Origin: Halobacteriales archaeon QS_4_70_19
Lineage (GTDB): Archaea > Halobacteriota > Halobacteria > Halobacteriales > Haloarculaceae
Assembly: GCA_003020985.1 (NCBI GenBank)
Contig: PXRM01000017.1
Coordinates: 1-64,000, forward strand
DNA: 64,000 nt
Direction: 5' to 3'
In this document: positions 2,145 to 14,113 of the stretch, piece after piece
Layout: each line of letters starts with the position of its first letter
How positions within the stretch are numbered: position 1 is the first letter of the stretch
Program-made: the position numbers and the translations under genes
Notes under the pieces: generated by a model
What the model was told of the DNA's origin: nothing
The model's input: the letters and a program-made list of their open reading frames with translations, nothing else
The model's database searches: none

Positions 2145-2903
2145 TTACCCCCCGAGGTAGGTTTCGCGGATGTAGTCGTCGCCGCGGAGCTCGCCGGGGG
2201 TGCCGGTCTTGACGACCTCCCCGTTCTCGAGGAGGTACATCCGGTCGGCGTGGTCGAGCGCGAACGTGACGTTCTGCTCGGTCAGGAGGATGCTGACGCC
2301 CTGCTCCTGGATGGGGTCGATGGCCTGACTGATGTCGTCGAGGATGACCGGCGCGAGACCGATGGTCGGCTCGTCGAGGACGAGGATGTCCGGGTCGCCC
2401 ATCAGGGCGCGCCCGATGGCGAGCATCTGCTGCTCGCCGCCGGACATCGAGCGGGCGTTCTGGTCGGTCCGTTCCTCCAGGCGGGGGAACAGGTCGTAGA
2501 CGAACTCCAGCTGCTTCTCGACGTAGCTCTCGTCGTCGATGGCGTAGGCACCGAGCCGGAGGTTGTCCTCGACGTCCATGAAGCCAAAGAGGTCCCGCTC
2601 CTCCGTACAGTAGATCATCCCGCGGTCGACCAGTTCGTCACGCGGCACGGAGCCGACCTCCGTCCCGCGGAAGGTGACGCTCCCGCCGTACGGGAGGAAC
2701 CCGTTGACGGTGTCACAGAACGTGGTCTTGCCGGCGCCGTTCGGGCCGATGAGCGAGACGAGCTCGCCCTCGCGGAGTTCGAGGTCGACGCCCCGGAGGG
2801 CGGTGACCTTCCCGTACGAGACCTGGACGTCCTCGGCCGTCAGCACCGTCGACCCCGTGGCCGATGCCTCGGTGCCGGTACCCGCTCGCGGCTGGCTGCT
2901 CAT
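2145..2903 (-). CDS. livF: branched-chain amino acid ABC transporter ATP-binding protein LivF
   Basis: A 252-residue ABC ATPase, the second nucleotide-binding subunit of a Liv/HAAT-family importer. Walker A GPNGAGKT is at 53-60, the signature MSGGEQQ at 153-159, Walker B LVLDEPT at 174-180, and the switch His is in LLTEQNV. The sequence after Walker B (IGLAPVI) is typical of LivF. Its ATG overlaps the livG TGA by two bases, so translation is probably coupled. An N-terminal extension of about 20 Ser/Thr/Ala-rich residues precedes the domain. Substrate could be branched-chain amino acids, amides, urea or related solutes; sequence does not decide. Confidence 0.9.
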   Translation of the reverse strand: MSSQPRAGTGTEASATGSTVLTAEDVQVSYGKVTALRGVDLELREGELVSLIGPNGAGKTTFCDTVNGFLPYGGSVTFRGTEVGSVPRDELVDRGMIYCTEERDLFGFMDVEDNLRLGAYAIDDESYVEKQLEFVYDLFPRLEERTDQNARSMSGGEQQMLAIGRALMGDPDILVLDEPTIGLAPVILDDISQAIDPIQEQGVSILLTEQNVTFALDHADRMYLLENGEVVKTGTPGELRGDDYIRETYLGG

Positions 2904-3697
2904 ATCTCATCACCACCGAGGTACGCTTCTTGAACCTTCGGGTCGTCCGTGATCTCGTCGGGCGACCCCTCGGCGATCTTCGCGCCGAACTGGATGACGA
3001 ACGCGCGGTCGATGAGGTTGAGCAGCCCGCGCATGTTGTGGTCGACCACGATGAGGGTCATCCCGTTGTCCCGGAGACTGAGGAGCACTTCCGTCAGCTC
3101 CTGGACTTCGTTCCCGGAGAGGCCGGCGAACGGCTCGTCGACCAGCATCAGGTCGGGGTTGGTGGCGATGGCCTTCGCGAGCTCCAGCTTCAGCATCCCG
3201 GCGTGCGGGAGTTCGCTCGGCGTCTGGTGGAGCTGGTCGCCCAGTCCGACGCGCCGGCAGATCTCCTCCGCCAGGCGCCGTGTCTCGCCACCCACACCCG
3301 CGAGCGTGAACAGCTTGTCCGGCGCCAGCGACAGCGCCACGTTCCGGACCACCGTTCGGTCCGAGAGCGGGGCGAAGTCCTGGAAGGTGCGGGCCATCCC
3401 CTTCTGGACCATCCTGTGTGAGTCCAGTCCGGTGACGTCCTCGCCCTTGAACCAGACGTCGCCGCTGGTCGGCTTGTAGAAGCCGGTGATGCAGTTGAAC
3501 GTGGTCGACTTCCCGGCCCCGTTCGGGCCGATGAAGCCGAGGATCTCCTGTTCCTGGACGGCGAACGACAGGTCGTCGACCGCCGTCAGTCCGCCGAACT
3601 CCTTCCGCAGGTCGTCGGCGACCAGCACGCCGTCCTGGGGCCTGAGGCCGCTCCGCGTGGGCGTGGCGCGCTCGCCGCTCTGTTGATCGGTACTCAT
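2900..3697 (-). CDS. livG: branched-chain amino acid ABC transporter ATP-binding protein LivG
   Basis: A 265-residue ABC ATPase. The start MSTDQQSG lies one base after the livM stop; the longer open frame upstream lies inside livM and is rejected. Walker A GPNGAGKST is at 57-65, Walker B is LMLVDEPFAGL, and the switch His is in VVDHNM. The usual LSGGQ signature is replaced by LPHAGMLKLELAKA, a divergence I recall in some Liv-type ATPases, so it need not mean inactivity. The family-typical C-terminal tail (VQEAYLGG) is present. It should pair with LivF to drive the LivH-LivM permease. Confidence 0.9.
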   Translation of the reverse strand: MSTDQQSGERATPTRSGLRPQDGVLVADDLRKEFGGLTAVDDLSFAVQEQEILGFIGPNGAGKSTTFNCITGFYKPTSGDVWFKGEDVTGLDSHRMVQKGMARTFQDFAPLSDRTVVRNVALSLAPDKLFTLAGVGGETRRLAEEICRRVGLGDQLHQTPSELPHAGMLKLELAKAIATNPDLMLVDEPFAGLSGNEVQELTEVLLSLRDNGMTLIVVDHNMRGLLNLIDRAFVIQFGAKIAEGSPDEITDDPKVQEAYLGGDEI

Positions 3698-3698
3698 G

Positions 3699-4952
3699 TT
3701 ATCGACGCTCGTTGATGATCTCGCGCAGCTCCGTACGGTACTTCTCGATGATCTGTCCGAGGGCGGAGTCCTCGTCCTCGCCGGGGCCCCCCTCGTACTC
3801 CTCGCCGCGGGCCGACGCGAGTACCCGCCGCCCGGTCCGGATGCCGACCCGGAGGACGCCACCGGGGGCGAACACGAGGACGGCCATCGCGGCCGCCAGC
3901 AGCGGCAGCGGGCGCAGGTCTGCGACCGCCACGTTCACTACGGGGATGGTGAAGTCGATGGCGCCGATGACGAGCCCGGTGACGGCGAACAGCACCGCCC
4001 CGATGATTGGCCCGACGATGGTGCCGGTCCCGCCGAGGATGGAGATGATGATGACGTCGATACTCGTCTGGATGTCGTCCTGGCCGAGGATGCCCAGCGG
4101 CGACGGGCTCTTGATGGTGTGGACCCACATGGCGCCGGCGAGGCCGCCGACGACCGCCGACAGGACGAACGCGAACAGCTTGAACTTCGCGCCGTCCAGG
4201 CCGGCCGCGGCGACGGCGTCCTCGTCCTCGCGGATGGCGGTGAACACCGAACCCGCGGACGAGCGGGTGACCGCCAGTAGCACGATGAGCACCAGGACCA
4301 TCAGCCCGAGCGCGGTGTAGTAGTTCGCGAGTGCCGTCTGCTGGATTCCTTCGTAGCCCGAGGCCAGTTCGAAGACGGCCCCGCTCCCGTCGATCCCGAA
4401 CAGCTGGGTCGGCAGGCCGGGCCCGTTTCGGCCACCGAGCCCCTGGGGCGCGATGGGGATTCCGAGCGGGGTCAGCCCGTTGTTGAACAGCGTGAACAGC
4501 TTCGACAGGATGATCGGGACGATGAGGGTGACCAGCGACAGGTAGGGGCCTCGGAGCCGGAGCGCCGGGAGCCCGATGAGGAGGCCGCCGATGCCGGCCA
4601 GCAGCATCCCGATCGGGATACCGACGAGCGGCGTGATGCCGTGTTGCAGGTCGAGGATGGCGCTGGTGTAGCCGCCGACCGCGAAGAAGAACGCGTGCCC
4701 GAACGAGAGCTGCCCGGTGTAGCCGGACACGACGTCCCACGACATCCCGAAGATGGCGAGGAAGACGAGGGTGGTCGGACCACCCATCTGGTCCGGGAAC
4801 AGCTGCGTCGGGAGCAGCACGAACAGCAGCAGCCCCAGCAGCCCGATCTGGTACCGCAGGGGCATCGTGATCGGATTGAGTTTCCGGAGCACCGCCTGCC
4901 GGCGCTCGGTCTGCGATGCACCGCCGACGAGGGATTCGCTTTCGGTGGACAT
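3699..4952 (-). CDS. livM: branched-chain amino acid ABC transporter permease LivM
   Basis: A 417-residue multi-spanning permease. The body carries the LivM pattern SGYTGQLSFGHAFFF near residues 75-90 and the conserved cytoplasmic loop TAIREDEDAVAAAG with GLDGAKFKLFAF, the coupling helix that contacts the ATPase. About eight to ten hydrophobic segments are visible. The C-terminal tail (about 60 residues) is hydrophilic and acidic, longer than usual for LivM. The ATG overlaps the last base of the livH stop (TAATG), and one base separates its stop from livG, so the whole operon is tightly packed. Confidence 0.9.
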   Translation of the reverse strand: MSTESESLVGGASQTERRQAVLRKLNPITMPLRYQIGLLGLLLFVLLPTQLFPDQMGGPTTLVFLAIFGMSWDVVSGYTGQLSFGHAFFFAVGGYTSAILDLQHGITPLVGIPIGMLLAGIGGLLIGLPALRLRGPYLSLVTLIVPIILSKLFTLFNNGLTPLGIPIAPQGLGGRNGPGLPTQLFGIDGSGAVFELASGYEGIQQTALANYYTALGLMVLVLIVLLAVTRSSAGSVFTAIREDEDAVAAAGLDGAKFKLFAFVLSAVVGGLAGAMWVHTIKSPSPLGILGQDDIQTSIDVIIISILGGTGTIVGPIIGAVLFAVTGLVIGAIDFTIPVVNVAVADLRPLPLLAAAMAVLVFAPGGVLRVGIRTGRRVLASARGEEYEGGPGEDEDSALGQIIEKYRTELREIINERR

Positions 4953-5827
4953 TATTCAGCAGCCTCCCGCCCGAACAGGCCTTCGGGCTTGACGAGCAGG
5001 AACACGATTAGCAGCACGAGCGCGGTGAACCCCTGCAGCGAGGAGTCGATGTACTGGGTGGTGAACGTCTCGGTGAAGCCGATGATGTAGGCCCCGACGA
5101 CGGAGCCCTTGATCGAGCCCAGGCCGCCCAGGATGACGATCGAGAACGCCAGGATGAGCGGCTGGGTCCCCATGTTCCAGGCGCCGGTGTTTTTCATCGT
5201 CAGCAGGACACCGGCGATGCCGGCGAATGCCCCGGCGAGCAGCCACGTGATGAGGTTGATCTTCCGCGCATCGATGCCGACGATGGCCGCACCCTTGTCG
5301 GACATCGACACCGCGAGGATCGCCTTCCCGGTCTTCGTCTGGGAGACGAACACGCCCGTGAGGGCGATCAGGATCATCGACAGCAGGAAGATGGTGATGT
5401 CGATGTTGAAGACGCTGATACCAGCGATGTCGGTCTGGCCGGGCGTCACCTGGTCGACGGAGAAGTTCCCCGTTCCGTGGGAGGAGAACACCCGAACCGC
5501 GTGCTGGATGAAGAAGCCGATGATGAAGGTGAGGATAAGCAGCGTCACCGGCTCGTCCTCGACGAACCGGACGACACCCAGGTAGAGGATGGCGGCGACG
5601 ATGGCTGCAGTCAGCATGCCGCCGACGACCCCCAGGGCCGGGTGGAGGCCGAGGTTCGTCTGGTTCGAGATGAGGTACGAGGCCTCGGCCCCGATAGTGA
5701 TTAGCGCGCCGTGCGAGAAGTTCAGCACCCCTCCGACGCCGAAGATCAGGGTGAACCCGAGCGCCACGATGGCGTAGAGGGAGCTGATCGATATCGCGTT
5801 GACGAGTACGTTTGCGAAACTGACCAT
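4952..5827 (-). CDS. livH: branched-chain amino acid ABC transporter permease LivH
   Basis: A 291-residue inner-membrane permease starting MVSFANVLVNAIS. The family N-terminus is clear: AIVALGFTLIFGVGGVLNFSHGA. The coupling loop TGKAILAVSMSDKGAAIVGID and the late segment ILGGLGSIKGSVVGAY are typical of LivH. Length agrees with the family (about 290-300). The long open frame upstream overlaps livK and is not part of the gene. It forms the translocation pore with LivM; a gap of 44 bases separates it from livK. Confidence 0.9.
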   Translation of the reverse strand: MVSFANVLVNAISISSLYAIVALGFTLIFGVGGVLNFSHGALITIGAEASYLISNQTNLGLHPALGVVGGMLTAAIVAAILYLGVVRFVEDEPVTLLILTFIIGFFIQHAVRVFSSHGTGNFSVDQVTPGQTDIAGISVFNIDITIFLLSMILIALTGVFVSQTKTGKAILAVSMSDKGAAIVGIDARKINLITWLLAGAFAGIAGVLLTMKNTGAWNMGTQPLILAFSIVILGGLGSIKGSVVGAYIIGFTETFTTQYIDSSLQGFTALVLLIVFLLVKPEGLFGREAAE

Positions 5828-5871: not shown

Positions 5872-7329
5872 CTACTGGTTGGCGGGGTGGTCGCTGGGGT
5901 AGTCGATCCAGTCGGGGTAGGTGTAGTCGGAGGTCTTGTTCTGTTCGGGCGCGAACGAGTGCATGACGCCGTAGTCCTCGGCGACCTCCCGGTCGATCTG
6001 CCACTGCTGCCAGACGGGAACCCCGGTTTCTTTCATCGAGGTCCACTGCGGGTCGTGGGCGTAGTCGGCCTCCGGCGGCGTGAACTTGACCTCCGGCAGC
6101 ACGATTCCCTCCGTGAACTTGTACTTCTCCAGCGCCTTCACCATGTCCTCGTTCGACGGGATCTCCTCGAGGTCGTTGTCGAGGACCCACTGGGCCATCG
6201 CCTGTGCGTACGCACGGACGGCGTCGTACTGGATGGGGCCGGAGTAGACGGGGAAGGTGTCGAACCGCTTCTGGTACCGCTTCATGAAGTCCTGCGTGCG
6301 CGGCGTGTTCGTGGTCTGGGGCGTGACCGCGTTCATCGTGAAGATGTGCTCACACGCGCCCGAAACCTCCTCCCAGAACTCGTACACCTGCGACGGGACG
6401 TGGATGCCGCCCATCTCGAACTGTCGGTTCTGGTTAGACCACTGCTTGACGGCGGCGGTACCGGTCAGCGCCTGCGCGACGAGGTTGAGGTCCGCACCCG
6501 AGGACTCGACCTCGTCGAACAGCGGCGTCCAGTTGGTAGTCCCCGAGGAGGAGCGTTTGAACACCGGCACCTCGGAGACGATGTCGCGGACGGACTCATC
6601 CAGTAGCTCCGCGAAGGGGTCCAGTGGCGCGATGTTCTCGGTGAGCACCGCGACGGAGTCCCAGCCGAGCTGGTCGGCGTAGATGTCGAGGAACTCCAGT
6701 TCCGCTCGCGCGAGGTCGTAGGAGTTGATCGGGCCCGCGCGGAAGTGCCACTTGAACTCGTCGTACCGCTCGTGGACGATGCGTGCCGGTTTCGGCCCGG
6801 CGGCGGCGGTGGTGATGTGGACCGTCTCCGTCGCCTTCATCGAGTTGAAGATCTGGAGGGTACACTGCGTGAGGAACGTCCCGAACGTCGTTTTGCAGCC
6901 CTCCTTCTGGACGAGGCGGTCGAACTCCTCGAGCGCCGTCCCCGGGGAGGCCTCCGTGTTCCCGGAGACCGGCTCCAGCTTCGCGCCCAGAATACCGCGC
7001 CCGCCGATGCCGGGCACGCCGTTCTGGTTGATCTCCTCGACGGCCATCAACGTGGAGTTCCACATCGACTGGCCGATCGGGAAACTGTCCGGCTGCGGTG
7101 CCAGACTCCCGATCCGGATGGTGTTCCCCGAGAGGGGCTGTGGTGGTTCCGTCCCGCTCTCGTTGCCGCCGTCGGCGGTGTTCTCGAACCCGCTGCCGGA
7201 TTGTCTGTCTCGTGTCTTACAACCCGCTGCCAGCGCGGCGGCCCCACCGGCCCCCGCGTATTTGAGGAACGAGCGGCGCCCGCTGTTGCCGCCCGCGTCT
7301 CCTGATTCCTCTGCCATGCTATCTGTCAT
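5872..7329 (-). CDS. Liv-type substrate-binding lipoprotein (periplasmic-binding protein fold)
   Basis: A 485-residue ABC receptor of the Leu/Ile/Val-binding superfamily, the first gene of the operon. The N-terminus has a twin-arginine motif GRRSFLKYAG (17-26) followed by a hydrophobic stretch and a lipobox LAAGC with Cys37, so it should be exported folded by Tat and lipid-anchored. The mature protein begins with a Gly/Ser/Asp linker, then IRIGSLAPQ and MAVEEINQNGVPGI, as in Peripla_BP_6 proteins. Start is ATG at 7329 or MAEESG four codons later. An AT-rich TATA-like element (CTATTAAACG on the minus strand, 7372-7382) lies 45-55 nt upstream. Ligand unknown. Confidence 0.88.
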   Translation of the reverse strand: MTDSMAEESGDAGGNSGRRSFLKYAGAGGAAALAAGCKTRDRQSGSGFENTADGGNESGTEPPQPLSGNTIRIGSLAPQPDSFPIGQSMWNSTLMAVEEINQNGVPGIGGRGILGAKLEPVSGNTEASPGTALEEFDRLVQKEGCKTTFGTFLTQCTLQIFNSMKATETVHITTAAAGPKPARIVHERYDEFKWHFRAGPINSYDLARAELEFLDIYADQLGWDSVAVLTENIAPLDPFAELLDESVRDIVSEVPVFKRSSSGTTNWTPLFDEVESSGADLNLVAQALTGTAAVKQWSNQNRQFEMGGIHVPSQVYEFWEEVSGACEHIFTMNAVTPQTTNTPRTQDFMKRYQKRFDTFPVYSGPIQYDAVRAYAQAMAQWVLDNDLEEIPSNEDMVKALEKYKFTEGIVLPEVKFTPPEADYAHDPQWTSMKETGVPVWQQWQIDREVAEDYGVMHSFAPEQNKTSDYTYPDWIDYPSDHPANQ

Positions 7330-7746
7330 TGTTTTCTGTCTCCGTTAAGCCGTTTCGCTGGGCAAGTCCGGCCGTTTAATAGTCCGTGCAGCCTGTTCTC
7401 GTTTCGCTCTGCCTCCGATATCCTCCGGCTCGGCGGCGTCCTCCGCCCGGTGTCGGCCGATGGAGAACCACATTTCGTCATCCGTGCGACACCCCTGTCT
7501 GGGGAATCAGTATAAATATGGACCTCGTAACGCGCGCCCGAGGTACCCGATCTCCGTTGTCGTCCCTCGGTATGGGGCGCTGGAGCGGTGACCGGTCCCG
7601 GCGCTGATAGAATATTCAGTAAAGTGCCACGGCCCCCGATGGAGAGCGAACGTAAGAACACCACGTCTTCTGATGGCACAGAACATAAATACCCATGTAC
7701 TCCCAGCAAAGGGGTTAGGGTGTGTCGGATTCCGTATGCCTGATAC
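7330..7746. promoter_or_regulatory. divergent intergenic region between liv operon and surface-protein cluster
   Basis: 417 bases without a gene. The minus-strand promoter of the liv operon is near 7372-7382. AT-rich TATA-like blocks at 7510-7520 (GTATAAATATGG) and near 7682-7692 (CATAAATACC) could serve the plus-strand glycoprotein gene at 7747. No further ORF, repeat or tRNA was recognised. Confidence 0.4.
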
Positions 7747-8967
7747 ATGACACGAAACGCAACTGTCGCGGTTCTGGGTGCGGTGGCGGTCCTCGTCGCC
7801 GTCGGCGCCCTGACCGGTGGGGCCGGCGCCGCGCCGTCCGGATCGTCGGTCGGCCACGGCGCGGAGAACGGGAACTACACGGTCGACCTGCCGTTCGCGA
7901 CCGACCACTACCCGCGGGATAAGAACCCAGGTGGCGAGTACAACGCCAGCATCAACCACTACGCGGCCGGGACCCCCGAGGTCTTCGCGGACAACGGGGC
8001 CCCGGGGGGACTCGAGGAGATCGACTTCATCATCATCGGGAACCCGGACATCGACTTCTCCGAGTGTACGACCTCGAACACGGCCGCGTTCGGGATCGAC
8101 CGGGACAACGACGACTCCGGGACGGACACCGACGTCGGACTGCTGAGCTACCGGAGGAACTCCGAGTTCCGCGAACACTCCATCGTCATCGAGTTCTACG
8201 ACGACGAGGATCTCGCCGCGAAGAGCCGCGATGACAAGGGCGGCAAGGAGGCCGGTCGCGAGGACGGTGACAAGGACCCCGAGATGTACCCGGACGACGA
8301 GATCGTGGCCCACCAGGGGTACAAGTCCGGCGGGGGCCCGTGCTACGGGATGCCCGAGGAGCCCGGCTGGTACCAGATCGACGGCTTCCTGAACGGCACC
8401 TCCTTCAGCGGCAACGACGTCGAGCTGAACGTCCCGTCGCACTACTTCTACGTCTGCGAGTGCTCGAGCGAGCAGGAGGCCTACGAGCAGCTCGGTGCGC
8501 CGCCGGGCCAGGAGAACCCGTACGCGGACGGCGACTCGGATGGCGGCTCCGACGGTGGTTCGGACGGCGGTGACGCGACGCCGACGCCGACGCCGGACAC
8601 CGGCGATTCGAGCGACGACTCGACGCCGACACCCACGCCGACGCCGACCGACACTGAGACGGCGACGCCCACCTCAACGGCGACCGCGACACCCACCCCG
8701 GCGAGTGACGACGGTGGGTCCGGCGGTGGCGGCTCGGACGGTGGCTCCGACAGCGGCGGCTCCGACGACGGCGGCTCGGACGGCGGCTCGGCGGGCCAGA
8801 CCGCGACCACCTCGGCCACGGGCGGCGGTGGCCAGGCCGACGACCAGCCGAACCAGCAGGGTGACGGACCGATGACGCCGACGGCGGGCTCCGGTCCGGG
8901 CTTCGGGCTGGTGGCCGCGCTGGGTGGCGTGCTGGCAGCGGCGCTGCTCGCGCTCCGCCGCGACTGA
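7747..8967 (+). CDS. secreted PGF-CTERM surface glycoprotein, copy 1 of tandem family
   Basis: A 406-residue exported protein. A Sec-type signal peptide (MTRNATVAVLGAV...) is followed by a conserved domain of about 220 residues containing NYTVDLP, FSECTTSNTAAFGID, GPCYGMPEEPGWYQI and YFYVCECSSEQEA. A Thr-Pro, Ser-Gly-Asp stalk fills about 255-375, and PGFGLVAALGG with a hydrophobic helix and RRD closes the protein: a PGF-CTERM tail, processed by archaeosortase ArtA in haloarchaea. This copy has an extra lysine-rich insert (KSRDDKGGKEAGRED) absent from the other two. Asn-X-Ser/Thr sequons suggest N-glycosylation. The domain is not one I can name; cell-surface anchoring is strongly supported, function is not. 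Confidence 0.85.
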   Translation: MTRNATVAVLGAVAVLVAVGALTGGAGAAPSGSSVGHGAENGNYTVDLPFATDHYPRDKNPGGEYNASINHYAAGTPEVFADNGAPGGLEEIDFIIIGNPDIDFSECTTSNTAAFGIDRDNDDSGTDTDVGLLSYRRNSEFREHSIVIEFYDDEDLAAKSRDDKGGKEAGREDGDKDPEMYPDDEIVAHQGYKSGGGPCYGMPEEPGWYQIDGFLNGTSFSGNDVELNVPSHYFYVCECSSEQEAYEQLGAPPGQENPYADGDSDGGSDGGSDGGDATPTPTPDTGDSSDDSTPTPTPTPTDTETATPTSTATATPTPASDDGGSGGGGSDGGSDSGGSDDGGSDGGSAGQTATTSATGGGGQADDQPNQQGDGPMTPTAGSGPGFGLVAALGGVLAAALLALRRD

Positions 8968-9372
8968 GGCCGGGTAACCCCCCCGCCAGCGGACCGGGCG
9001 ACCGCTGGTGCCGGGGTCGTTCCTCCGACTCGGCTTTCGACTCGACAGCCGCGCCCCAGCCGCGACCGGCGCCCGGAGTTCCCCCGTATCCCCGTCGCCA
9101 CATCCCCTCGTCCCTCCCGGCAGTCGTGTCGGCCGCCAGTTGCGTTCGGGCCCCCTCCGTCCCCCGGCCGGGCGCCCAACAGGTACTATCCCTCGATTCT
9201 CCCGTTCTCGTCCGAACCCCCCGGAGAGTCCGGTATCCGACAGGTCCGCAGAGAGTACATATTTTGAATTACTTACCCAGATAACGTACAAATACGGCTA
9301 AACAATCGTTCAATACGAAAGACTTTCAAGATATACGCAGGACTTTTCCGTGTCTGTGTGGTTCGTCGGTGT
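8968..9372. other. intergenic spacer between surface-protein copies 1 and 2
   Basis: About 400 bases with no convincing gene. The last 110 bases turn AT-rich and hold TATA-like sequence (ACAAATACGG, AAGATATACG) that probably drives copy 2. The earlier part is GC-rich and shows no recognised structure. Confidence 0.4.
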
Positions 9373-10539
9373 ATGCGAGCTACCCCCCTCGCTATCGTCG
9401 CGGCACTCGCGTTCGCGGCGGTGGCCATCGGTGGCGTCGCTGTGGCGGACAGCGCACCCTCTGCCGAACCGCACGACAACGGTATCGGAACGAACTACAC
9501 GGTGAACCTGCCGAACGAACAGAGCCACCAGCCCGGGGCTTCGAACGCGGACATCCAGCACTTCTCCGCCCCCGACGGACTCTTCCAGGACACTTCCTCC
9601 CCGAAGGGCTTCGAGCGCCTGGACACGCTGATCATCTACAACCAGGACATCAACTTCGGGACGTGTTCCACGGAGGACACGCGGGCGTTCGGAATCGACC
9701 GCGGGAACGACAACTCCGGGACCGAGACGGACGACAGTCTCCTCCAGCACCGCGAGGACTCCTCGTTCAACGAGCACTCCATCTACGTGAACTTCTACGG
9801 TGAGGACTCCATCGCCGGCCAGCCGGTCTCCCTGAACGCGGAGGACCAGATCGTGGCCGTCCAGGATGGCTGCTACGGCATGCCCGACGAGCCGGGCTGG
9901 TACCAGATCAACGCGCGCATCAACGGCACCGGCTACAACGGCAACTACATCGACTCGGACGACCAGGGGACCATCCGGTCGCACTACTTCTACATCTGTG
10001 ACTGCTCGAACGAGCAGGAGGCCCGCGAGAAGCTCGGCCCGCCGCCGTCCGAGTCCGGGAGCGACGGTGAGAGTGACGACGGCGGCGACGCGACGGCCAC
10101 GCCGACGGACGACTCCAGTGACGACGGTGGGAGCGACGACGGCGGCGACGCGACGCCGACGGACGACTCCGGTGACGACGGTGCCGGCGACGGCGGCGAC
10201 ACGACGCCGACGGACGACTCCGGTGACGACGGTGCCGGCGACGGTGGCGCCGACGACGGCGGGAGCGACGGCGGCGACGCGACCACGACCGACGACGGCG
10301 AGGACGGCACGGACACGGGGACGGCGACCACGACCGACGACAGCGAGGGCGGCACGGACACGGGGACGGCGACCACGACCGCTGGCGACGGCGGCGACGG
10401 TGATGCCGGCGACGGCGGTGGCTTCGACGACGACGGCGCCTCCGACACGCCGAGCTCCGGCGACGGTCCGGGCTTCGGCCTGGTGGCGGCGCTGGGCGGC
10501 GTGCTGGCAGCGGCACTGCTGGCACTTCGCCGCAACTGA
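9373..10539 (+). CDS. secreted PGF-CTERM surface glycoprotein, copy 2
   Basis: A 388-residue paralogue of the upstream gene. I start at MRATPLAIVAAL, which begins a good signal peptide, rather than the GTG five codons earlier. The conserved domain has NYTVNLPNEQSH, FGTCSTEDTRAFGID, DGCYGMPDEPGWYQI and YFYICDCSNEQEA, sharing the four cysteines of copy 1. The stalk is Asp/Gly/Thr-rich with repeated TPTDDSGDDGAGDGG units, more acidic than the Thr-Pro stalk of copy 1. It ends in GPGFGLVAALGG plus a hydrophobic helix and RRN, a complete PGF-CTERM signal. A 76-base block (9879-9954) is identical to copy 3, pointing to recent duplication or gene conversion. Confidence 0.85.
   Translation: MRATPLAIVAALAFAAVAIGGVAVADSAPSAEPHDNGIGTNYTVNLPNEQSHQPGASNADIQHFSAPDGLFQDTSSPKGFERLDTLIIYNQDINFGTCSTEDTRAFGIDRGNDNSGTETDDSLLQHREDSSFNEHSIYVNFYGEDSIAGQPVSLNAEDQIVAVQDGCYGMPDEPGWYQINARINGTGYNGNYIDSDDQGTIRSHYFYICDCSNEQEAREKLGPPPSESGSDGESDDGGDATATPTDDSSDDGGSDDGGDATPTDDSGDDGAGDGGDTTPTDDSGDDGAGDGGADDGGSDGGDATTTDDGEDGTDTGTATTTDDSEGGTDTGTATTTAGDGGDGDAGDGGGFDDDGASDTPSSGDGPGFGLVAALGGVLAAALLALRRN
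9879..9954 (+). repeat. 76-bp block identical to 11286-11361
   Basis: By reading, this part of copy 2 (encoding MPDEPGWYQINARING and following residues to YID) matches copy 3 at every base including third codon positions. Flanking codons differ. This supports recent conversion between copies. Confidence 0.75.
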
Positions 10540-10776
10540 ACGACCCACCCCACAACTGCCCGGCCTCTCCCGACCGCCCCGGTGATTCTCGGTCGGGGGC
10601 CTCTCGCAACGGTGAGTGCCCCGTCCCGGTCGTATCACTCCCGGGGCGTCTCGTGATTGCTCACTTATGTCGTCGTTCTCCAGTAACGGTTGATTCATTT
10701 CGGAAATTCCTCCGAGACAGGAGATGTTCTCCCCCGTCTCAAAGAACTTTTCAGTCTGAAAAAGTATCGTCAGGTG

Positions 10777-11877
10777 ATGCGTATCTCGACGTTCACCGTC
10801 GTCGCGGTGCTCGCACTCGCGGCGGTGGCCATCGGCGGGGGGGCCGTCGCGGGGGAGACTTCGTCGACCGACCACGACAACGGTATCGGTGCGAACTACA
10901 CGGTCGTCCTGCCCAACGAGGAGGACCACTACCCGGGGACGGACGGCGGCGCGGCGAGCATCTGGCACCTCGCCGCGGGGGGTGATTCCTTCGAGCAGAC
11001 CTCCTCCCCGGAGGGACTCGAACGGATGGACGCCCTGACGATCCGGAACCGGGACATCGTCTTCGCCAGCTGTACCACGGAGAACACCGCCGCGTTCGGC
11101 CTCGACTACGGGAACAACAACTCCGGCACGGAGACGGACGAGGGGCTCCTGAGCCACCGGAAGGAGTCCTCGTTCAACGAGCACTACATCTACGTGGACT
11201 TCTACGGGCCAGACTCGCTGGCCGGGTCACCGGTCCGGTTCAACGCCATCGACCAGGTGGTGGCCGTCCAGCAGGACTGCTACGACATGCCCGACGAGCC
11301 GGGCTGGTACCAGATCAACGCGCGCATCAACGGCACCGGCTACAACGGCAACTACATCGACACGAAGGACGCGGGCACCATCCGGTCACACTACTTCTAC
11401 ATCTGCGAGTGCTCGAACGAGCAGGAGGCCCGCGAGCAGCTCGGGCCGCCGCCGTCCGACGACACGGGCAGTGGCGGGTCGAGCGGCGATTCCTCGACGG
11501 CGACGCCGAGCCCGACGCCGACGCCCGAGTCCGACGACTCCGGCAGCAGCGGTGACTCCTCGACGCCGACACCGACGGACGCGGTGACGGCCACTGCGAC
11601 GCCGACGCCCGAGTCCGCCGACTCCGATAGCGGCGGTGACTCCGGCGGTAGCTCCGACGACGGCGCGGACGACCGGACCGCGACCGCCACGGCGACGGCA
11701 GCGTCCGGCGGCGGTGGCGACGACGGCGGCGACGGCGGAAGCGACGGGCAGACGGCCACGGCGACGGCAGCGTCCGGCGACGGCCAGCAAGTCCAGCAGA
11801 ACCAGCAGGGCGACGGTCCGGCGACGCCGACACAGCTCCGACGAACCGGGCTCTCGCCGGCCCGGGCGCGCCCGTGA
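10777..11877 (+). CDS. secreted surface glycoprotein, copy 3, lacking the PGF-CTERM anchor
   Basis: A 366-residue third paralogue. Start MRISTFTVVAVL gives a normal signal peptide; the longer upstream reading adds an unlikely charged extension. The conserved domain (NYTVVLPNEEDHY, FASCTTENTAAFGLD, DCYDMPDEPGWYQI, YFYICECSNEQEA) and the Thr/Pro/Ser stalk are intact. After GDGPATPT the sequence departs from the family and stops at LRRTGLSPARARP, so neither PGF nor the final membrane helix is encoded. Another frame shows DEPGSRRPG rather than a clean PGF-CTERM, so this looks like loss by deletion or rearrangement, not one frameshift. The product should be released or held non-covalently. Confidence 0.78.
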   Translation: MRISTFTVVAVLALAAVAIGGGAVAGETSSTDHDNGIGANYTVVLPNEEDHYPGTDGGAASIWHLAAGGDSFEQTSSPEGLERMDALTIRNRDIVFASCTTENTAAFGLDYGNNNSGTETDEGLLSHRKESSFNEHYIYVDFYGPDSLAGSPVRFNAIDQVVAVQQDCYDMPDEPGWYQINARINGTGYNGNYIDTKDAGTIRSHYFYICECSNEQEAREQLGPPPSDDTGSGGSSGDSSTATPSPTPTPESDDSGSSGDSSTPTPTDAVTATATPTPESADSDSGGDSGGSSDDGADDRTATATATAASGGGGDDGGDGGSDGQTATATAASGDGQQVQQNQQGDGPATPTQLRRTGLSPARARP

Positions 11878-11916
11878 AAGACAACGCCTATTTGCAGTCG
11901 CGGCAACCGGCCACGT

Positions 11917-13026
11917 ATGCAACGACGAGTCGCGGCGATCTACCTCGTCTTCTTCGTCGTCATGGGGGCGAGCGCCTACTCCGTCATCGCCACGGCACAC
12001 CAGCCCGCCATCGACGTCGAGGGCGAGGCTCTCACGCAGGGTGACTCCATCACCGTCGACGGGACCGAGTACACCGTCACGAGCCTCGAAGAGCAGGAGG
12101 CCGGCGGTGGCGACGGTCACGGTGGCGGCGGTGGCGGCACGACGCTCGCCGGCACGCTCTCGACCACCAACGACTCCGTCGTCTTCAGCGCCTCACTGTC
12201 GAACGGGACGGCGCTCTCGCCCACCAACTCCACGTGGCAGGGGAAGCAGGGCGAGTACACGGCGACCATCGACGACGGCGACACCGTCAGTTACAACGGG
12301 AGCGAGCAGACCGTCAACGTCTCGGCCGGGAACTTCTCGCTGGTGAACCAGACCGGGAACGCCACGGCCTCGTTCAGCGTCGGCGACACGTTCGAGCACC
12401 GGCGCAACGTCACGACCGTCACCGGGATCGAGAACGGGTCGTCGGCCACGCTGACCTGGGGCGACAACTACCAGGTCGTCATCCCGAACGCCTCGAACCC
12501 CGACGAGTTCCGCGCGCTCCAGCGGTTCAACGTGAGCCAGCGGCTCCGGAACGACCCCGACGTCGAGAACCAGACCTACCAGGGTGAGGACGGCCGCTTC
12601 GTCCGCTACCGGAACGGCACCACTCAGCCCCTCGACGAGTACCTGCCCGCCCCCGGCGAGACGACGTTTGCCGAGGGTGACGCGCTCACCTACCGGGCCA
12701 CCGAGGACCCCTCCGCGCCGGCCAACGAGACCACGGTCGCCAACGTCACCAGCGAGGAGGTGGAGCTCGAGTGGACGGGCTCCCGGACCGAGACCACCGA
12801 GCTGTCGGAGGGCGCGAACGTCACCCTGGGCGACCAGCAGTACGTCGCCCACTTCAAGAACACCTCGACGGTCCTGCTCTCCTCGGACGTCTCCGGTTAC
12901 CAGGACCAGATCCGGAAGCAGGGCTACTACCACGAGCGGATGAACGGTCTCTGGGGCGTCTCCATCCTCTCCGGCTTCGGTGCGCTCCTGGTCGTCGCAC
13001 TCGCCTACCTCCCGACCCGGGGCTGA
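11917..13026 (+). CDS. N-glycosylated bitopic membrane protein of unknown function
   Basis: A 369-residue protein with an N-terminal membrane segment (VAAIYLVFFVVMGASAYS, residues 4-21), a long extracellular region and a C-terminal helix (VSILSGFGALLVVALAYLP). The outer region is packed with about 20 Asn-X-Ser/Thr sequons (such as NGTALSPTNST, NVSAGNFSLVNQTGNAT) and a Gly/His-rich linker (GGGDGHGGGGGG, about 62-73). It starts 39 bases after copy 3 and is probably co-transcribed with it. No enzyme motif was seen. Position beside the surface-protein cluster suggests an envelope role. Confidence 0.75.
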   Translation: MQRRVAAIYLVFFVVMGASAYSVIATAHQPAIDVEGEALTQGDSITVDGTEYTVTSLEEQEAGGGDGHGGGGGGTTLAGTLSTTNDSVVFSASLSNGTALSPTNSTWQGKQGEYTATIDDGDTVSYNGSEQTVNVSAGNFSLVNQTGNATASFSVGDTFEHRRNVTTVTGIENGSSATLTWGDNYQVVIPNASNPDEFRALQRFNVSQRLRNDPDVENQTYQGEDGRFVRYRNGTTQPLDEYLPAPGETTFAEGDALTYRATEDPSAPANETTVANVTSEEVELEWTGSRTETTELSEGANVTLGDQQYVAHFKNTSTVLLSSDVSGYQDQIRKQGYYHERMNGLWGVSILSGFGALLVVALAYLPTRG

Positions 13027-13355: not shown

Positions 13356-14030
13356 TCAGAGGCGTTCGAAGTAGTCGACGAGCGACGCCTCGACGACTTC
13401 CGAGGGCTCGACGTCGTCGAGGGCGGCCCGTCGCCGGAACTCGCGGTAGACGCTGGGGTCCAGCGAGATGGTCAGCTCCCCGAGTTCGACGTCGACCTCG
13501 GCGAGCGCCTCCTCGACGCTCATGCCCTCGTTGACGCGCGAGGCGGCCGCCCGGACCTCCCGGACGGTGAGGTCGTGGTCGAGGGCGGCCCAGGCGAGCA
13601 GGAAGCGGGCCTCGCCGGAGACCCGGGCGATGTGCTTCGCGGCGGTCGGCGCGATGCGCCCGAGGGCGACGTAGCGCCTGACTGACCGGGGCAGGTCGTG
13701 GACGCGTGCCCACTTGCGGATGAACGCGACGGTGGCCTCGCCGCCGGCGCGCTCGGCGGCGGCCTTGTACGAGCCCTCGCCGCGGACGAGCGCGGCGCAG
13801 GCGGCCGCGCCCCTGAGCATGAAGACGTTGTCGTCGCCGCCGGCGGTGTTCTGGGAGAACCGACGGACCACGTCGGCCGCGAGCTCCAGGCTCCCGGGGT
13901 CCGAGGGGTCGAACCCGACCGCCTCGTCGCCCGCGACCTCCGGCTCGCCCCGGATGACGGGCTGGCCGACGGGCGACTCCCGGTCGGCTGGTGGTATCTC
14001 CTCGGGTCCCCGTCCTGTCATTGGAGACAT
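13356..14030 (-). CDS. conserved haloarchaeal HTH-like protein (DUF7119-like)
   Basis: A 224-residue protein starting MSPMTGRGPEE (a second possible ATG lies three codons in; the longer upstream frame lacks family-like sequence). Central motifs DDNVFMLRGAAACAALVRGEGSYKAA, FIRKWARVHDLPRSVRR and APTAAKHIARVSG look like ParB/KorB-type helical DNA-binding segments. A C-terminal LGELTISLDPSVYREFRRRA resembles a ribbon-helix-helix. I recall this as a haloarchaeal protein assigned to DUF7119, from memory only. A nucleic-acid-binding role is inferred from helix content and basic patches. Confidence 0.72.
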   Translation of the reverse strand: MSPMTGRGPEEIPPADRESPVGQPVIRGEPEVAGDEAVGFDPSDPGSLELAADVVRRFSQNTAGGDDNVFMLRGAAACAALVRGEGSYKAAAERAGGEATVAFIRKWARVHDLPRSVRRYVALGRIAPTAAKHIARVSGEARFLLAWAALDHDLTVREVRAAASRVNEGMSVEEALAEVDVELGELTISLDPSVYREFRRRAALDDVEPSEVVEASLVDYFERL

Positions 14031-14113
14031 CGTACGGGCAACCACGGCAAAAACCCCCCGCCCGCGTGCATCTCGACTCAACAGTCGCCGACGCCAGCGG
14101 TCGTCCCGTCGCG

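Follow-up and report, generated by a model that had tools for sequence, protein, structure and literature searches.

The three consecutive forward-strand genes at positions 7747-11877 of the window (the whole stretch of 64,000 nucleotides analysed) encode stalked proteins whose secreted head domains form a real and undescribed family, yet one of a known kind, namely PGF-CTERM surface proteins with an Ig-like domain. Heads of this family are confined to 4 of the 22 genera of the taxonomic family, in which each genome carries 2-18 copies, and they recur beside ABC importers of the branched-chain type; it is in this importer linkage and copy number that the interest of the family lies. The heads are tentatively read, with rather less than even confidence, as surface-anchored ligand-capture modules serving dedicated importers. 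The features of the locus are as follows.

2145-2846, reverse strand: LivF-like ABC ATPase (PF00005).
2900-3697, reverse strand: LivG-like ABC ATPase (PF00005 and PF12399).
3699-4952, reverse strand: branched-chain-type ABC permease (PF02653).
4952-5827, reverse strand: branched-chain-type ABC permease (PF02653), start by codon-usage call.
5872-7329, reverse strand: LivJ/UrtA-type ABC substrate-binding protein (PF13458) with a Tat/lipobox N-terminus, divergent from copy 1.
7330-7746, no strand: divergent intergenic region of 417 bp between the importer and copy 1.
7747-8967, forward strand: copy 1 (array type A); signal peptide, predicted four-cysteine Ig-like head of 214 amino acids (7864-8505), G/T/D/S/P stalk, PGF-CTERM.
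9373-10539, forward strand: copy 2 (array type B); signal peptide, head of 188 amino acids (9484-10047; modelled with AlphaFold2), D/G/T stalk, PGF-CTERM.
10777-11877, forward strand: copy 3 (array type C); signal peptide, head of 190 amino acids (10885-11454), G/S/T/D/A stalk, without PGF-CTERM.
11917-13026, forward strand: sequon-rich bitopic membrane protein; 18 sequons, N- and C-terminal hydrophobic segments.

The secreted domain shared by the three genes (~190-215 residues) is followed in each by a low-complexity stalk. In the window copies the head extends over 188-214 residues, from an N-Y-T motif to an LG[PA]PP end, and contains the common motifs NYTVxLP, CxTxxT, C-Y-x-MP-EPGWYQI and YFYxCxCS; pairwise head identity is 50-70%, far above chance. 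The four head cysteines are invariant in two alignments of family members (32/32 and 49/49). For copies 2 and 3, codon usage placed the best starts at 9373 and 10777. The spacing of the head genes (~400 and ~240 bp) points to separate promoters and not to a single operon. What an earlier sequence-only reading had described here, namely three tandem genes with a common four-cysteine head and its motifs, stalks of differing composition, PGF-CTERM tails in two of the three copies and a sequon-rich bitopic gene directly downstream, was recovered in full.

That reading also had no family to name for the domain, and the searches agree: no Pfam family exceeded its curated cut-off among 32 members, no NCBIfam family did so among 49, a PDB sequence search with the head returned no match, and nothing on the family was found in the literature. 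DUF4465 was considered and set aside as too weak, with a best E of 0.0048 and matches in only 3/32 members. Profiles of ABC substrate-binding families in Pfam and NCBIfam matched none of the heads. The AlphaFold2 model of the copy 2 head, built with 49 family members, is a mostly-beta sandwich (pLDDT 92.4, pTM 0.86), and the head is confidently predicted to be an Ig-like beta-sandwich. Its best structural neighbours in the PDB are TTHA1873, BslA, YcnI, MSCRAMM domains, Als3 and sortase pilins (Z 8-9, TM 0.4-0.5), which support the predicted Ig-like fold and no particular function; in the VIA-align listing, no family stood out clearly from the rest. For TTHA1873, BslA and YcnI (Z 8.7-9.1) the likeness is one of fold only and does not imply a common function. 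Among viral structures, none matched the head below E 0.001.

All four cysteines are kept in 125 of 136 distinct head matches. In three heads (L137:5304-6383, L140:5799-6866 and L141:5225-6943) the C-terminal CDC has become GDF while the first two cysteines are retained, and no full-length match among the 136 lacks exactly one cysteine. This loss of C3 and C4 together, and never singly, favours disulfide pairs C1-C2 and C3-C4 (cysteines numbered along the head).

The family census, conducted with a profile built from 32 members, identified eight head copies in the genome of the window: three in the window, two on contig C25 and one each on C14, C22 and C1. Three other genomes of the same genus carry 12-18 copies, two Halorarius-type genomes 7-8, one further genome two, and the eleven with genus code g10, Natronomonas species among them, 5-10. 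Named organisms with heads are Haloglomus halophilum, H. irregulare, Halorarius litoreus, H. halobius, Natronomonas gomsonensis and Natronomonas sp. CBA1123. At the end of contig C1 and the start of C40 (loci L052 and L053 of G000, the genome of the window), one head gene is apparently split in its repetitive stalk, the two contigs sharing a TTTD-type repeat and C40 carrying the PGF-CTERM tail.

Beyond these genera, matches across the class are weak (E 1e-4 to 1e-11) and correspond to a distant domain that has no cysteines and carries GIDRGDD and NPxxAGxY motifs (hmmsearch domain hits to 4e-13); it has no Pfam entry of its own. Profile-profile alignment of the heads with this domain (hhalign E 9.7e-13, probability 97.8, 93 columns) indicates that the heads are a cysteine-bearing, lineage-restricted offshoot of a wider, unnamed haloarchaeal surface domain. 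The wider domain, with the consensus GIDRGDDxxGxxVDV...NPxxAGxYxVxxxINPQSSG, shares with the heads the GIDRGxD and NPxxxGxY motifs and often a stalk and PGF-CTERM, whereas it lacks the four cysteines, the tryptophan of GWY and the C-terminal YFYxCDCxxExEAREQLGPPP; the positions aligned with C1 and C2 are hydrophobic in these relatives. It is sometimes fused to DUF7282: at L122, L123 and L124 distant head relatives lie in the same ORF as DUF7282-type sequence, confirmed as DUF7282 for L122.

The array is older than its tandem arrangement might suggest. A tree of 110 heads places copy 2 beside a Haloglomus-group copy from genome G001 (support 97) and copy 3 beside copies from G002 and G003 (support 97), and it joins copy 1 to type A copies at a support of 91, below the starred level. 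A recent triplication is ruled out by this tree, since all three copies have separate counterparts of their own in other genomes of the Haloglomus group. The local triplication proposed by the sequence-only reading therefore gives way to paralogues that predate the species split, in a family that is dispersed, with eight copies here and up to 18 in sister genomes. In sister genomes the array occupies the equivalent position, flanked by the same binding protein and bitopic gene, and comprises four to five head genes.

The history of the C-termini appears to differ from that of the heads. Of the full-length family members listed, nearly all finish with a PGF motif that is followed by a hydrophobic stretch and then by a basic end. 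In the window, the tail of copy 2 exceeds the TIGR04126 cut-off of 24.5 bits (25.7 bits), that of copy 1 reaches 20.8 bits and is near-identical to that of copy 2, and the same profile found no PGF-CTERM in copy 3. Copy 3 keeps to the stalk sequence up to GPATPT, where it passes into other DNA at a junction near 11836 (11836-11877); in sister genomes, the DNA past this junction is the spacer between the last head gene (D) and the bitopic gene. Copy 3 thus appears to have lost its PGF-CTERM by a deletion that fused the gene to the downstream intergenic region, an assembly error being possible in this 46-contig assembly. Between paralogues within one genome, heads are 72% identical and the last 75 bases 88%, whereas between orthologues of different genomes the values are 88% and 87%; heads follow species history and tails look homogenised. 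Gene conversion may be the cause; the comparison is suggestive only, as the tails are short and compositionally constrained. The idea that the locus diversifies cell-surface display while keeping the head is thus the wrong way round for the anchor: the heads are diverged old paralogues, and it is the PGF-CTERM tails that seem to have been evened out. Of the overall interpretation in the sequence-only reading, the conserved four-cysteine head, the variable stalks and the ArtA-type tails in two copies stand, and triplication and display diversification are not supported.

The genome of the window carries two tandem TIGR04125 (archaeosortase A) matches, at G000:C14:86845-87678 and 87972-88886, and together with the tails these point to ArtA anchoring of copies 1 and 2. 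Paired TIGR04125 matches, mostly adjacent, occur in 8/8 genomes checked. Most PGF-CTERM proteins have no assigned role. Where heads number up to 18, the genome gives some 28 PGF-CTERM matches at the limit of the search, so heads make up a large share of the ArtA-dependent surface in their genera.

The divergent LivJ-type importer, which the sequence-only reading missed, offers the best functional clue at the locus. Its operon has the full set of LivFGHMJ/UrtABCDE-type ABC importers (PF13458, two PF02653 and two PF00005 proteins); such systems are not known to have linked stalked PGF-CTERM heads. Across some 62 sampled head-gene neighbourhoods, some of them orthologous and so not independent, Liv importer genes were present in 21. 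Haloglomus, Halorarius, G018 and Natronomonas-type genomes all have the window-type binding-protein clade next to heads, and in the last of these heads flank the importer operon on both sides and on the same strand (L129, L130, L154). Other Liv operons beside heads (L045-L048, L055, L063/L064) are non-orthologous, their binding proteins being only 30-45% identical, and heads also lie beside an SBP_bac_3 importer (L060) and MFS transporters (L049, L057). A third kind of Liv operon, at L055, neighbours a single protein with two heads in tandem (L055:5265-7001). H. halophilum has a branched-chain-type permease operon within 6 kb for four of its nine head clusters (p ~5e-5 under random placement), an approximate count in which the operons are those among the matches listed. 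On the tree of 110 heads, Liv-linked heads require at least six changes of context, so the linkage arose or was kept in several clades.

Counted at E below 1e-100, the window-type binding-protein clade was present in 17/18 head-bearing genomes versus 0/128 without heads, a genome-level comparison whose p-value overstates independence owing to shared descent; the one exception is a genome of 72% completeness. By genus, the clade occurs in 4/4 with heads versus 0/18 without (p 1e-4), and within Natronomonas-like genomes the association has a p of 0.004. An ABC importer is nevertheless absent beside over half of the head loci, and close binding-protein paralogues are located away from heads in three genomes.

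Given anchored, stalked heads next to importers with a membrane-tethered binding protein, a role of the heads in uptake, catching the solute or its carrier farther out, is the simplest interpretation. The three window genes are read as the remnant of a four- to five-gene array belonging to a surface family of the Haloglomus/Halorarius/Natronomonas group. Each protein would be exported, its disulfide-held Ig-like sandwich raised above the membrane by a flexible acidic stalk; copies 1 and 2 would be cleaved at PGF-CTERM and lipid-anchored by archaeosortase A, and copy 3 would probably be released or loosely held in this strain. Working with the divergently transcribed LivJ/UrtA-type importer, the heads would bind or concentrate its substrate (or the carrier of the substrate) at or beyond the S-layer and hand it to the membrane-tethered binding protein. 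Paralogous heads would serve other importers likewise, and others would be under HVO_0513/HTH_10 regulators. Anchoring, disulfides, ligand capture and hand-over are all steps that we infer beyond what sequence, fold prediction, orthology, co-location or co-occurrence themselves establish. With more hesitation, we propose that the heads could constitute a class of accessory proteins new to ABC import in archaea, in which stalked, sortase-anchored Ig-like receptors, several to each LivJ-type importer, catch substrate beyond the S-layer. The nearest parallel, the PGF-CTERM-anchored ABC substrate-binding proteins of TIGR04281, is likewise ArtA-type anchored and linked to ABC import, and matches the heads in the tail region only; unlike these two-lobed proteins, the heads are predicted Ig-like sandwiches and are present in addition to a lipobox LivJ-type binding protein. 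The passage of solutes through the haloarchaeal S-layer to membrane-anchored binding proteins is little studied, and the importer linkage gives the head family a concrete, testable function.

On the substrate, the PDB relative of the binding protein (8tg1) was uninformative, and the neighbouring nitrite/sulphite reductase, DUF7119 and ParA-like genes are not conserved with heads beyond the window-type locus.

Against ligand capture stands the fact that adhesins and pilins figure among the structural neighbours no less than other proteins do, at middling scores (Z ~9). The main rival, which we consider possible though rather unlikely, takes the heads for MSCRAMM-like stalked adhesins or S-layer-associated structural display proteins, whose position next to importers would reflect only that both are niche-specific and are retained or regulated jointly. 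It retains this standing because the succession of a signal, an Ig-like head, a Thr/Ser/Asp-rich stalk and a sorting signal suits it equally well, as does the fold, with ClfA, SdrD, UafA, Als3 and sortase pilins as neighbours, and because paralogues are many and many head loci lack an importer. MSCRAMM-type adhesins (ClfA, SdrD, UafA) and Als3 are, like the heads, stalked Ig-like surface modules (TM ~0.4-0.5, Z 8-9), and the single head sandwich matches one MSCRAMM domain of the DEv-IgG N2/N3 type (Z 8-9, TM ~0.4). However, identity is ~10%, the anchoring differs, no tandem N2-N3 'dock-lock-latch' pair was seen in the heads, and the fold scores are of a size that common arrangements also reach. 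Adhesion also leaves unexplained why heads should lie beside several Liv operons that are not orthologous, beside an SBP_bac_3 importer and beside MFS genes, and why their phyletic distribution matches that of one binding-protein clade almost perfectly.

HVO_0513_N/HTH_10 regulators adjoin heads in 25 of the ~62 sampled neighbourhoods, usually divergent or convergent to the head gene, and most loci other than the importer-linked ones carry such a regulator. The heads might be extracellular sensors or co-receptors whose occupancy is relayed via partners to these regulators, which would switch nearby transporters and oxidoreductases. We regard this as improbable, since the regulators appear to be cytoplasmic and the heads anchored on the outside, a conserved transmembrane partner for signalling was not seen, and the window locus lacks a neighbouring regulator of this kind. 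Very improbable is a defence against haloviruses by surface variation or decoys, in which recombination would shuffle the tandem paralogues. It would suit the tandem arrays of varying size, the homogenised tails and the recombination-type deletion in copy 3, but the heads are conserved one-to-one between species rather than hypervariable, no relatives were found in viral contigs (IMG/VR) or plasmids (PLSDB), and no DNA-inversion machinery was seen. A viral or plasmid origin of the family was rejected on the same absence of relatives in IMG/VR (tblastn-confirmed scan) and PLSDB.

The bitopic gene downstream of copy 3 was considered as a part of the head system and discarded, since its family is present in 134/194 sampled haloarchaeal genomes, most of them without heads; its protein matched no Pfam family over cut-off. 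In Natronomonas-type genomes, the bitopic gene lies beside the ribosomal L16/L10e gene. Further downstream in the window, positions 13356-14081 encode a DUF7119 protein whose synteny with the head array is kept in the Haloglomus/Halorarius group.
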